A program made the position numbers and the translations under genes. The notes beneath the pieces are model-generated. The model made no database searches. It was not told the DNA's origin and worked only from the letters and a program-made list of their open reading frames with translations. Below, in pieces: positions 46,946 to 51,250 of a stretch of 64,000 nt of DNA. The stretch is taken from positions 124,001 through 188,000 of the forward strand of contig NZ_JAUCGR010000002.1 in the NCBI RefSeq assembly GCF_030362815.1. Reading direction: 5' to 3'. Position 1 is the stretch's first letter. Each line of letters opens with the position of its first letter. Source of the stretch: Cellulomonas edaphi (lineage in GTDB: Bacteria > Actinomycetota > Actinomycetes > Actinomycetales > Cellulomonadaceae).

Positions 46946-47353
46946 ATGCCGAAGCCCGCGCAGACCCGCGCATCCGTGTCCGTCGGGACGGGCCTGCCCG
47001 TCAGCCGAGTCGCCGACCTGGCAGCCAAGGCCGCGTCGTCCGTCGACGACCCCGCCGGGCGGGTTCGCGTCGAGTCGCGCTCGCTCGCCTCGGTCGAGCT
47101 CTCCGTGCGGGACCACATCGAGGGCAAGGAGCTCATGCGCTTCGACGTGGTCATCGACCGCGCGCTGGGCCGCACCAACTCGCGCACCGTGATCTCGAAG
47201 TTCGAGGTGAAGGGCGGCGTCTCGAGCCTCATGCCCGCGGTCAAGCGCAAGCTCGTCGCCTTCAGCGCCTACGAGGCGTACATGGACTGGTTCGTCTCGG
47301 AGGTCGTGAGCGAGGACCCGCAGGCCCTCGTGACCCTCGTCAGCGGGGAGTAG
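46946..47353 (+). CDS. Hypothetical protein between coaE and uvrB
   Basis: A 135-residue soluble protein that I do not recognise. It has an Ala/Ser-rich N-terminus, a central basic-acidic alternation ([20 protein letters not shown]), then [19 protein letters not shown] and an aromatic C-terminal stretch [16 protein letters not shown]. No membrane helix or signal. GC3 pattern, a GAGGAG seven bases before the ATG, and a promoter-like TAGTGT at 46881-46886 support it as a real gene with its own transcript. Confidence 0.75.
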
Positions 47354-47396
47354 CGCTCCCGCGCCACGTGTCGGTGGCGGCACGTACGGTGAGGGC

Positions 47397-49598: not shown

Positions 49599-50030
49599 AT
49601 GATGGGCGTCCCGATCCAGGTCACGTTCGATGCAGCGCACCCCCCGACGCTGGGGGCGTTCTGGGCCCAGGCGCTCGGGTACGTCGAGGACGCGCCACCG
49701 CCGGGCTTCGCCACCTGGGAGGAGGCGCTCGACGCCATGGGCGTGCCGCTCGACCAGCGTGACTCCGCCTACGCCGTGGTGGACCCCGACGGTGTGGGGC
49801 CGCGGCTGTGGTTCCAGAAGGTGCCCGAGGCGAAGAGCGCCAAGAATCGCGTGCACCTCGACGTGAACGCTGCCGCGGCGCTCCCGCGCGAGGAGCGCCC
49901 CGCGGCCGTCCGGGTGCGGGCCGCCGAGCTCGAGGCCCTCGGTGCGACGAGGGTGCGCGAGATGGAGGAGAACGGCGGGTTCTGGATCGTCATGCTCGAC
50001 CCCGAGGGCAACGAGTTCTGCGTCCAGTAG
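49599..50030 (+). CDS. VOC family (glyoxalase-like domain) protein
   Basis: A 143-residue single VOC domain of the Glyoxalase_6 type: QVTFDAAHPPTLGAFWAQALGY at the N-terminus, RLWFQKVPEAKSAKNRVHLDV in the middle, and VMLDPEGNEFCVQ at the end. These proteins are common in actinobacteria and mostly uncharacterised. AAAGGTGAG precedes two consecutive ATG codons (49599 and 49602), either of which may be used. Confidence 0.88.
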   Translation: MMGVPIQVTFDAAHPPTLGAFWAQALGYVEDAPPPGFATWEEALDAMGVPLDQRDSAYAVVDPDGVGPRLWFQKVPEAKSAKNRVHLDVNAAAALPREERPAAVRVRAAELEALGATRVREMEENGGFWIVMLDPEGNEFCVQ

Positions 50031-50098
50031 GCCGCCGATCCGCGACACGCCCGAGTACGCGACACGCGGGGACCAGCGACAGCGGGCGATTCGTCACG

Positions 50099-50104
50099 TA
50101 GGGT
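50099..50104 (+). promoter_or_regulatory. -10 of the terC riboswitch transcript
   Basis: TAGGGT places the transcript start near 50111, exactly at the 5' edge of the manganese aptamer. Two direct copies of CGCGACACGC (50041-50050 and 50058-50067) lie upstream, 17 bp apart, with unknown role. Confidence 0.6.
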
Positions 50105-50110
50105 CTGGCG

Positions 50111-50251
50111 TGTTGAAGGGGAGTACCCCACAAGTGAACGTTCCGTCAGCACGGGTCTCAACGGCGAGGTCCCGGAACGTTCGGCCGGCGACATGTCGCA
50201 CGGTGGGGGAGACCTTCGGTACCGATGCATGTCTCGATACCGGAGGTTCAC
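50111..50251 (+). ncRNA. yybP-ykoY manganese riboswitch with SD-sequestering platform
   Basis: The conserved aptamer strands are GGGGAGTA (50118-50125) in the 5' part and GAGACCTTCGG (50209-50219) in the 3' part. Closing stem: GAAGG (50115-50119) with CCTTC (50213-50217). A 10-bp perfect arm, 50136-50145 with 50173-50182, forms an internal helix. The expression platform is readable: GACCTTCGG (50211-50219) can instead pair with CCGGAGGTT (50240-50248), burying the terC Shine-Dalgarno in a hairpin that extends inward by TA/TA and CGA/TCG. The two states exclude each other, so manganese binding should free the ribosome site. Confidence 0.88.
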
Positions 50252-51250
50252 ATGGATATCCCTACCTGGGTGTGGCTCGTCACCGCTGCTGGCGTGCTCG
50301 CGCTGGTGCTGTTCGACTTCTTCGCGCACGTCCGCACGCCGCACGCCCCGAGCTTCTCGGAGTCGGTGAAGTGGTCGACGTTCTACATCGTCCTGGCGCT
50401 CGTGTTCGGCGTCGTGGTCGGCGTGGTGTGGGGCTGGGGGAGCGGGACGGAGTACTTCGCCGGGTACGTGACCGAGAAGTCGCTGTCGGTGGACAACCTG
50501 TTCGTCTTCCTCATCATCATGACGAAGTTCGCTGTCCCGCGAGAGTTCCAGCAGAAGGTGCTGCTGGTCGGCGTCGCGATCGCGCTCGTGCTGCGGACCG
50601 TGTTCATCCTGGCCGGCGCCGCCGCGATCGAGCAGTTCTCCTGGGCGTTCTACCTGTTCGGCGCGTTCCTGGTCTACACGGCGGTCAAGCTGGCGCGTGA
50701 GTCGGGCGGGCACGACGACGAGCCGGAGGAGAAGGTGGGCGACGGCGCGGCCGTCCGGATGCTCAAGCGCTTCGTGCCGACGACCACGGAGTACCACGGG
50801 GACCGGCTCACGACGAAGATCGACGGCAAGCGCTTCCTCACGCCGATGCTCCTGGTCATGGTGGCGATCGGGTCGACCGACATCCTCTTCGCGCTCGACT
50901 CGATCCCGGCGATCTTCGGCCTGACGTCGGAGGCGTACATCGTGTTCACGGCCAACGCCTTCGCGCTGCTGGGCCTGCGCCAGCTCTACTTCCTGATCGG
51001 CGGCCTGCTCGAGCGCCTCGTCTACCTGTCGCAGGGCCTTGCGGTGATCCTGGGCTTCATCGGCGTGAAGCTGATGCTGCACGCCCTGCACGTCAACGAG
51101 CTGCCGTTCGTGAACGGCGGCGAGCCGGTGACGTGGGTGCCCGAGATCCCCATCTGGCTCTCGTTGACGGTCATCCTCGGCACCCTGGCGGTGGCCACCG
51201 TCGCGAGCCTGGCGAAGACCCGCCGGGACCGGGTCCTGGTCGAGAGCTGA
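50252..51250 (+). CDS. TerC family membrane protein (Alx-like)
   Basis: A 332-residue membrane protein with eight or nine helices. Conserved acidic residues of the TerC/LysE-superfamily metal pathway are in SLSVDNLFVFLIIMTKF and STDILFALDSIPAIFG. Relatives such as E. coli Alx and B. subtilis YkoY/MeeF handle manganese efflux or metalation of exported proteins. The upstream manganese riboswitch makes a manganese role very likely. ATG 50252 has GGAGG at five bases; ATG 50225 upstream falls in the riboswitch hairpin loop and is rejected. Confidence 0.94.
   Translation: MDIPTWVWLVTAAGVLALVLFDFFAHVRTPHAPSFSESVKWSTFYIVLALVFGVVVGVVWGWGSGTEYFAGYVTEKSLSVDNLFVFLIIMTKFAVPREFQQKVLLVGVAIALVLRTVFILAGAAAIEQFSWAFYLFGAFLVYTAVKLARESGGHDDEPEEKVGDGAAVRMLKRFVPTTTEYHGDRLTTKIDGKRFLTPMLLVMVAIGSTDILFALDSIPAIFGLTSEAYIVFTANAFALLGLRQLYFLIGGLLERLVYLSQGLAVILGFIGVKLMLHALHVNELPFVNGGEPVTWVPEIPIWLSLTVILGTLAVATVASLAKTRRDRVLVES

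Follow-up and report, generated by a model that had tools for sequence, protein, structure and literature searches.

The window analysed here is a 64,000-nucleotide stretch of a Cellulomonas edaphi contig (NZ_JAUCGR010000002.1, positions 124,001 to 188,000), to which all coordinates below refer unless another locus is named; every feature discussed lies on its forward (+) strand. A gap of 221 bases separates a Glyoxalase_6 gene (end 50030) from terC (50252..51250), and contains the -10 box of a promoter, an aptamer stretch of 109 bases (50112-50220), and an expression platform that ends in the terC Shine–Dalgarno (SD) sequence. The terC product is a TerC family membrane protein of 332 aa (PF03741, E = 4.6e-51) and aligns with E. 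coli Alx over 312 columns at 37% identity; from these similarities it is predicted to be a Mn-homeostasis membrane protein, and its closest relatives among the matches listed come from Cellulomonas. The SD sequence GGAGG (50242..50246) stands five bases 5' of the ATG at 50252. Another in-frame ATG, at 50225, was rejected as the terC start: it sits at the loop of the platform, and is absent from loci L002 and L004 and present in L015. In a same-genus genome (L082, from approximately 2667 onwards), a second TerC-like frame, recognized by eye, seems to come directly after terC; none is evident by eye among the window frames 3' of terC.

The -10 box, TAGGGT (50099..50104), puts the predicted transcript start near 50111. 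The initial annotation had used this box to set the transcript start at the edge of the aptamer, and as far as the box itself is concerned the comparison bears this out: a TANNNT hexamer lies 16-22 bases 5' of GGGGAGTA in 77 of 77 leaders with the full core, against approximately 1.6% expected from upstream background. Since a sigma-70 consensus scan of 50000-50320 returned no promoter-like sites, the support extends to the -10 box and not to a full promoter.

Aptamer architecture and family assignment

The yybP-ykoY core named in the initial annotation is present at the positions given there, with GGGGAGTA at 50118-50125 and GAGACC at 50209-50214. This pair of elements, with 65 to 95 bases between them, occurs once in the window, and at least once in 3 of 100 shuffles. 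A third core element, L3, within CGUCAGCACG (50144-50153), had been overlooked. The full core, GGGGAGTA followed by CGTCANNACG and then GAGACC or GAAGAC, is found in 77 of 81 terC loci (the window plus the best 80 of 230 comparison loci fetched with the terC protein from named genomes), the remaining loci being L040, L055, L069, and L075.

Read from its 5' end, the aptamer begins with the P1.1 5' strand GAAGG (50115..50119), which is complementary to 50213-50217, so that the closing stem GAAGG/CCTTC claimed earlier is indeed there; its cells are paired in 100.0% of cases in a 38-row alignment and in 99.0% in a 40-row alignment, with double changes in 1 and 3 of its 5 pairs, respectively. The 5' side of L1, GGAGUA (50120..50125), is invariant in alignments A2 and A3 and is common to the E. 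coli alx and mntP leaders. The P1.2 5' strand CCCC (50126..50129) pairs with GGGG at 50205-50208, with CG, UA, and GC double changes. Where members with a four-way junction carry the P2 hairpin, between P1.2 and P3.1, this leader has the linker ACAAG (50130..50134) alone, and the consensus fold places no hairpin there. The P3.1 5' strand (50135..50145) pairs with 50173-50183 and shows double changes in 6 of 11 pairs; it leads into the L3 bulge UCAGCAC (50146..50152), and the stretch CGUCA, which overlaps the first bases of this bulge, is invariant in 40 of 40 rows. Two hairpins follow, P3.2 (50153..50172; 86-89% of cells paired) and P4 (50184..50204; 94-95%), both showing covariation. The 3' side of L1, GAGA (50209..50212), is conserved in A2 and A3, and GAGACC is also reported from Xanthomonas (PMC6754395). 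The aptamer then ends in the strand CCUUC (50213..50217), which can serve either as the 3' strand of P1.1 or as a partner of the SD, both pairings being present in the sequence. The sensing adenosine of L3 is described as UCA41AUUC in L. lactis and ACA48UACU in X. oryzae (PMC6754395); the L3 of the window likewise has seven bases with the putative Mn-sensing adenosine third, and by this comparison the sensing position falls to A50148, a base unchanged in 40 of 40 rows.

The helix order P1.1, P1.2, P3.1, P3.2, P4 is backed by covariation counts. Over 38 rows (the window, L002-L037, and L058), 94.2% of cells are paired and the covariation score is 0.417, compared with 0.181 ± 0.010 in shuffled alignments, none of 500 reaching it; sliding the partner strands by 1-3 bases brings pairing down to 39-55%. 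Of the 500 shuffles, 41 had at least as many doubly changed pairs (16), and none reached the observed value on the other measures. Over 40 rows, which were drawn from the 77 core leaders and span more families, 93.3% of cells are paired, double changes occur in 21 of 31 pairs, and none of 500 shuffles reaches the observed value on any measure. P1.1 itself changes from AU to GC in 17 of 38 rows and from GC to CG in 16 of 40. At the level of comparative sequence analysis, the predicted fold of the terC leader as a yybP-ykoY aptamer, consisting of P1.1, L1, P1.2, P3.1, L3, P3.2, and P4, is supported by this covariation.

Several variants of the core came to light among the loci compared. In six GDT1-type leaders (L130 and L156, identified by Pfam, and L140, L144, L160, and L165, identified by eye), L3 has the X. 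oryzae-like form ACAUACU; the aligned terC leaders have the L. lactis-like form UCANNAC. Near base 106 of L146, L148, L158, and L172, the matched leaders have an altered L1, with GGGCAGTA or GGGAAGTA replacing GGGGAGTA, and these four could possibly differ in metal preference. Locus L054, from a record titled Vibrio cholerae 35D, contains an actinobacterial terC and leader that are Arthrobacter-like by eye, and is probably a contaminant contig.

The Rfam model of the family, RF00080 (Rfam 15), finds no match in the window, either at its gathering score of 45 bits or up to an E-value of 10. This is the result that the initial annotation had named as speaking against its proposal. The missing match does not discriminate, however, because the same model also misses the E. 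coli alx leader, for which a Mn response has been measured: in a control of 27 kb of E. coli K-12 (alx at 8374-8502 of L084, mntP at 5462-5558 of L085), it overlooks alx and gives mntP 41.6 bits, under the cut-off of 45. In actinobacteria, an orthologous leader from the same genus scores 31.7 bits (E = 1.2e-6) with this model; among four actinobacterial loci L058 alone is matched, at 31.7 bits and below the cut-off; and none of 121 family genomes has a match above it. In the copy that we used, the printed consensus leaves P1 unpaired. The one match in the organism's own genome (14.6 bits, window positions 47333-47357) is 25 bases long and lies off the terC leader, and we took it as chance.

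We refer in what follows to a covariance model, R1, that was built from 40 actinobacterial terC leaders only, and whose E-values are rough by construction. In E. coli, R1 gives the alx leader 54 bits (E = 5e-11), and does not find mntP at E ≤ 1. Because R1 finds alx and not mntP, and because P2 is present in mntP and absent from both alx and the window, we group the terC leader with alx, an assignment made from sequence. The proposed membership in the yybP-ykoY family thus survives the comparative tests, namely the covariation in the 38- and 40-row alignments and the recovery of alx by R1. We saw no second R1 copy in the organism's own genome, where scoring 150 of 10616 first-look candidates gave a single place at E ≤ 1.

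Pairing of the P1.1 strand with the Shine–Dalgarno sequence

The strand that closes the aptamer has a second partner downstream. GACCTTCGG at 50211-50219 pairs with CCGGAGGTT at 50240-50248 in nine pairs, two of them G-T, exactly as the initial annotation had it. The predicted fold lengthens this helix to 11 pairs (50211-50221 with 50238-50248) and adds three inner pairs around an 8-base loop, again in agreement with what had been proposed. The resulting SD-burying helix of the OFF state (50211..50248) is supported by the fold, a partner search, and state energies; an inner platform hairpin (50218..50241) appears from the fold and state evaluation to be able to persist in both states. By complementarity, CCUUC can pair with GAAGG (aptamer closed) or with the SD GGAGG (SD buried), and since both pairings use the same five bases, SD burial and aptamer closure are mutually exclusive, as previously argued. 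An aptamer strand that is complementary to the SD, in a pairing exclusive with closure, makes this on sequence a translational, SD-sequestering platform.

The arrangement is shared by close relatives. In unconstrained folds, the SD pairs with the P1.1 3' strand and its flank with a probability of at least 0.87 in 38 of 38 close relatives. Judged against dinucleotide shuffles (p ≤ 0.05), the P1.1 3' strand has a significant downstream partner in 37 of these 38 (L058 falls at 0.063), in 3 of 39 sister-family leaders, and in 44 of 79 phylum leaders (the 79 of 81 loci with enough sequence); for the P1.1 5' strand, used as a control, the corresponding counts are 1/38, 5/39, and 1/79. In 37/37 close relatives, 0/3 sister-family leaders, and 32/44 phylum leaders, this partner resembles an SD and is followed, 1-13 bases later, by a start codon. 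The 12 phylum partners that are not an SD beside a start include two terminator-like stems (L127 and L138) and seven that precede GDT1-like frames (two assigned by Pfam, the rest by eye) whose start is further away.

Related sequences inflate such counts, an effect that touches a strand-swap test on the 79 phylum loci least. The leaders' own P1.1 and partner strands score 19.35, compared with 15.16 ± 0.31 when strands are permuted among loci (maximum 16.53; 0 of 2000 permutations reach the leaders' own score). Swapping only within identical P1.1 5-mers (73 loci) gives 19.38 against 16.90 ± 0.26, with a maximum of 17.88. Examples of co-changed P1.1/SD pairs are CCUCGAACAU/GUGUUCGAGG (L110), CCUCCAGC/GCUGGAGG (L096), and CCACCGC/GCGGUGG (L178). 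Within the 38 close relatives, the SD helix has double changes in only 2 of 11 pairs and is paired in 90.7% of cells, against 89.5% in shuffles; its two outer pairs form in 21 and 19 of the 38, and eight of the other nine in all 38.

The 39 core leaders of Microbacteriaceae/Micrococcaceae type (among L038-L057 and L059-L081) keep the aptamer without the SD/P1.1 platform: a search for it there gave the three partners at p ≤ 0.05 mentioned above, all of them local hairpins. For 18 of these 39 leaders, the predicted fold pairs the SD with the P1.2 5' strand at a probability above 0.5, and a CCCCUUG 5' of the SD could pair with CAAGGGG. We do not claim a mirror platform of either kind (CAAGGGG/CCCCUUG or SD/P1.2 5' strand), the 5' strand having a significant partner in 5/39 at p ≤ 0.05.

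At L127 and L138, a run of T comes directly after the stretch that pairs with the P1.1 3' strand, as in an intrinsic terminator, which would be a transcriptional platform within the same set of RNAs. These two leaders bear on a reading in which the Mn2+ riboswitch is real but acts on transcription, with Rho ending the untranslated message whose SD is buried and SD accessibility being secondary. An untranslated gene would be a substrate for Rho, which counts for this reading together with the two terminator-like partners. Termination of transcription is, moreover, the output of other yybP-ykoY members (PMC6754395). Against it, 50000-50320 contains no intrinsic-terminator-like site (GC hairpin plus T run), the competing strand is the SD itself in the close relatives (37/37), and a leader's own pairs outscore swapped ones across the phylum. 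We consider a Rho-dependent output unlikely, and prefer a translational one.

Spread in Actinomycetota and downstream genes

R1 matches at E ≤ 0.01 occur in at least 69 of 296 Actinomycetota genomes. In the same 296 genomes, RF00080 has matches in at least 13 at E ≤ 0.01 and in at least 1 over its cut-off; at most 13 (R1) and 8 (RF00080) first-look candidates were scored per genome, and these genome counts are lower bounds. The difference between at least 1 and at least 69 of 296 genomes indicates gaps in the annotation of manganese regulation in actinobacteria.

Besides the window, 87 R1 places were listed (29 loci and 58 fetched ones), chosen without any protein information, and 81 of them have the strict core. 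The six that do not (L146, L148, L158, L172, L177, and L179) were dropped from the gene counts; the core end is misplaced in at least L087 and L109, both of which were kept. Classed by similarity to five reference proteins, the first frame 3' of these 81 loci is TerC in 39, a P-type ATPase in 13, a Na/Ca exchanger in 3, and unclassified in 22, with no frame in 4. A Pfam scan of ten R1 loci gave six TerC, three E1-E2 ATPase, and one Na/Ca exchanger, and a scan of four unclassified ones gave two GDT1 and two peptidase M50. The latter (231-1427 of L126 and 227-1414 of L142) are site-2 protease genes with CBS domains behind R1-type leaders, an unusual target. The frames downstream of the leaders at L168 and L169 we take, by eye, to be HtpX-like. 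Families of Mn exporters are reported to include TerC, P-type ATPases, and UPF0016 (GDT1) (PMC9334652).

The identity of these targets also bears on the signal. A switch that senses mainly pH or another metal, and not Mn2+, has a reported precedent in the response of E. coli alx to alkaline pH. The leader falls together with alx under R1, and an alx reporter responds 3.5-fold to pH 8.5 alone (PMC9603457). In the same report, however, Mn2+ at 1 and 2 mM activates alx 3- and 6.5-fold, the Mn2+-contacting adenosine of L3 is kept, and the targets across the phylum include TerC, P-type ATPase, and GDT1 genes, so that we find a signal other than Mn2+ distinctly improbable and continue to regard Mn2+ as the probable ligand.

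As judged from sequence comparison, what appears to be new is a widespread set of P2-less leaders, mostly missed by the Rfam 15 model, in which the SD is often the competing strand. A broader reading would be that the Mn2+ riboswitches used by Actinomycetota form a compact branch without P2, most of which escapes the current Rfam model; that its commonest platform is a single strand swap, with the SD mimicking the 5' strand of P1.1; that it controls a Mn regulon (TerC, P-type cation ATPases, GDT1/MneA, Na/Ca exchangers, and site-2 proteases); and that sister families in the Micrococcales have kept the aptamer and replaced the platform. We put this joint reading forward tentatively, at somewhat short of an even chance, which we lowered because the partner is an SD beside a start in 32 of 44 cases and not in all.

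Proposed mechanism and comparison with known switches

By calculation the two states of the switch are not evenly balanced, which corrects the initial annotation. In the window, the OFF state is calculated at -54.4 kcal/mol and the state with P1.1 formed at -48.5 kcal/mol, so that OFF is favoured by 5.9 kcal/mol; over 38 leaders, the cost of closing P1.1 ranges from 3.6 to 18.2 kcal/mol. Energy rules give no credit to a folded L1 or to L1-L3 docking, and the true gap between OFF and ON is smaller than these values. Imposing the aptamer frees the SD only in part in these models: unconstrained, the SD has a median unpaired probability of 0.001 over 38 leaders; with P1.1 alone enforced, the SD of the window is only 0.25-0.43 unpaired; and enforcing the whole aptamer leaves more than half of the SD unpaired in 11 of 38 leaders including the window (median 0.39). 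In the state evaluation, forming P1.1 keeps the 50218-50241 hairpin and frees 50242-50248, and opening P1.1 lets the SD helix take over. Besides the five shared bases, two neighbours take part in the exchange, and transcription completes P1.1 24 bases ahead of the SD.

Taking these results together, we consider it highly probable that the leader (50112-50248) belongs, as an alx-like member without P2, to the yybP-ykoY Mn2+ riboswitches and that it turns terC translation on at high manganese; the ON logic proposed earlier is upheld by the comparative tests of SD/P1.1 pairing. Docking of L1 and L3 around Mn2+, with A50148 as the sensor, would hold P1.1 (GAAGG/CCUUC) closed. Closed P1.1 would deny CCUUC to GGAGG, leaving the SD free beside the small, persistent hairpin at 50218-50241. 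In the absence of Mn2+, GAAGG would give way to the SD strand, and the ribosome-binding site would be buried in an 11-bp helix. The choice between ON and OFF probably falls during transcription, when P1.1 could close before the SD is made. Equilibrium switching would be the simplest form, and we set it aside: with a bias of approximately 6 kcal/mol toward OFF in the window, and a Kd of approximately 53 uM for mntP at pH 6.8 (PMC9603457), a shift in equilibrium alone would be weak. Given that the OFF helix is more stable by calculation and that P1.1 is complete 24 bases ahead of the SD, metal-dependent trapping during transcription is probably the likelier mode on these model energies.

That the SD hairpin is instead a fixed translation attenuator outside aptamer control, its shared strand reflecting the complementarity of a CCUCC-like P1.1 to any SD, we judge very improbable. 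In its favour, P1.1 3' strands (CCUCC/CCUUC) resemble an anti-SD by nature, the calculated energies strongly favour OFF, and enforcing the aptamer in the model still leaves the SD partly paired. Against it, the pairing is leader-specific and extends beyond the SD (the leaders' own score within identical 5-mers exceeds the maximum of 2000 permutations), and the 39 sister-family leaders show that SD pairing is not automatic.

The terC leader is thus a likely Mn-responsive translational switch whose strand exchange is fully spelled out and backed by covariation. It also poses a question of minimal design: can a P2-less aptamer and five shared bases yield a useful response to Mn2+, and is the choice a kinetic one?

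Among known systems, the E. coli alx leader is the nearest. Like the window it has no P2, shares L1, L3, and the order from P1.1 to P4, precedes a TerC-family gene, and escapes the Rfam 15 copy of RF00080; in its predicted fold, however, the P1.1 3' strand lies in a hairpin of its own (8493-8514 of L084), whereas in the window the SD competes for this strand directly. The E. coli mntP leader has L1 and the GAGACC core in common with the window, but its sequence contains the P2 hairpin, R1 does not find it, and its predicted fold places the P1.1 3' strand in a separate hairpin and not with the SD. Its Mn-dependent control is exerted on translation initiation (PMC9603457). The L. lactis and X. 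oryzae aptamers with crystal structures agree with the window in their seven-base L3 with the sensing adenosine third and, for X. oryzae, in GAGACC, and differ from it in having a four-way junction and a transcriptional output, as described in PMC6754395. The C. glutamicum leader of cg2157 (terC) is, like that of the window, an actinobacterial terC leader; it was reported under RF00080 with 49.13 bits in the Rfam version used in 2013 and was seen in RNA-seq (PMC3890552), and in the present RF00080 search C. glutamicum gives a match below the cut-off. Actinobacterial terC riboswitches as such are therefore not new, C. glutamicum having already been placed under RF00080, and translational ON control by Mn2+ is already known from E. 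coli mntP and the alx reporter. Use of the SD itself as the competing strand is a simpler layout of a known principle and not a new class of switch.
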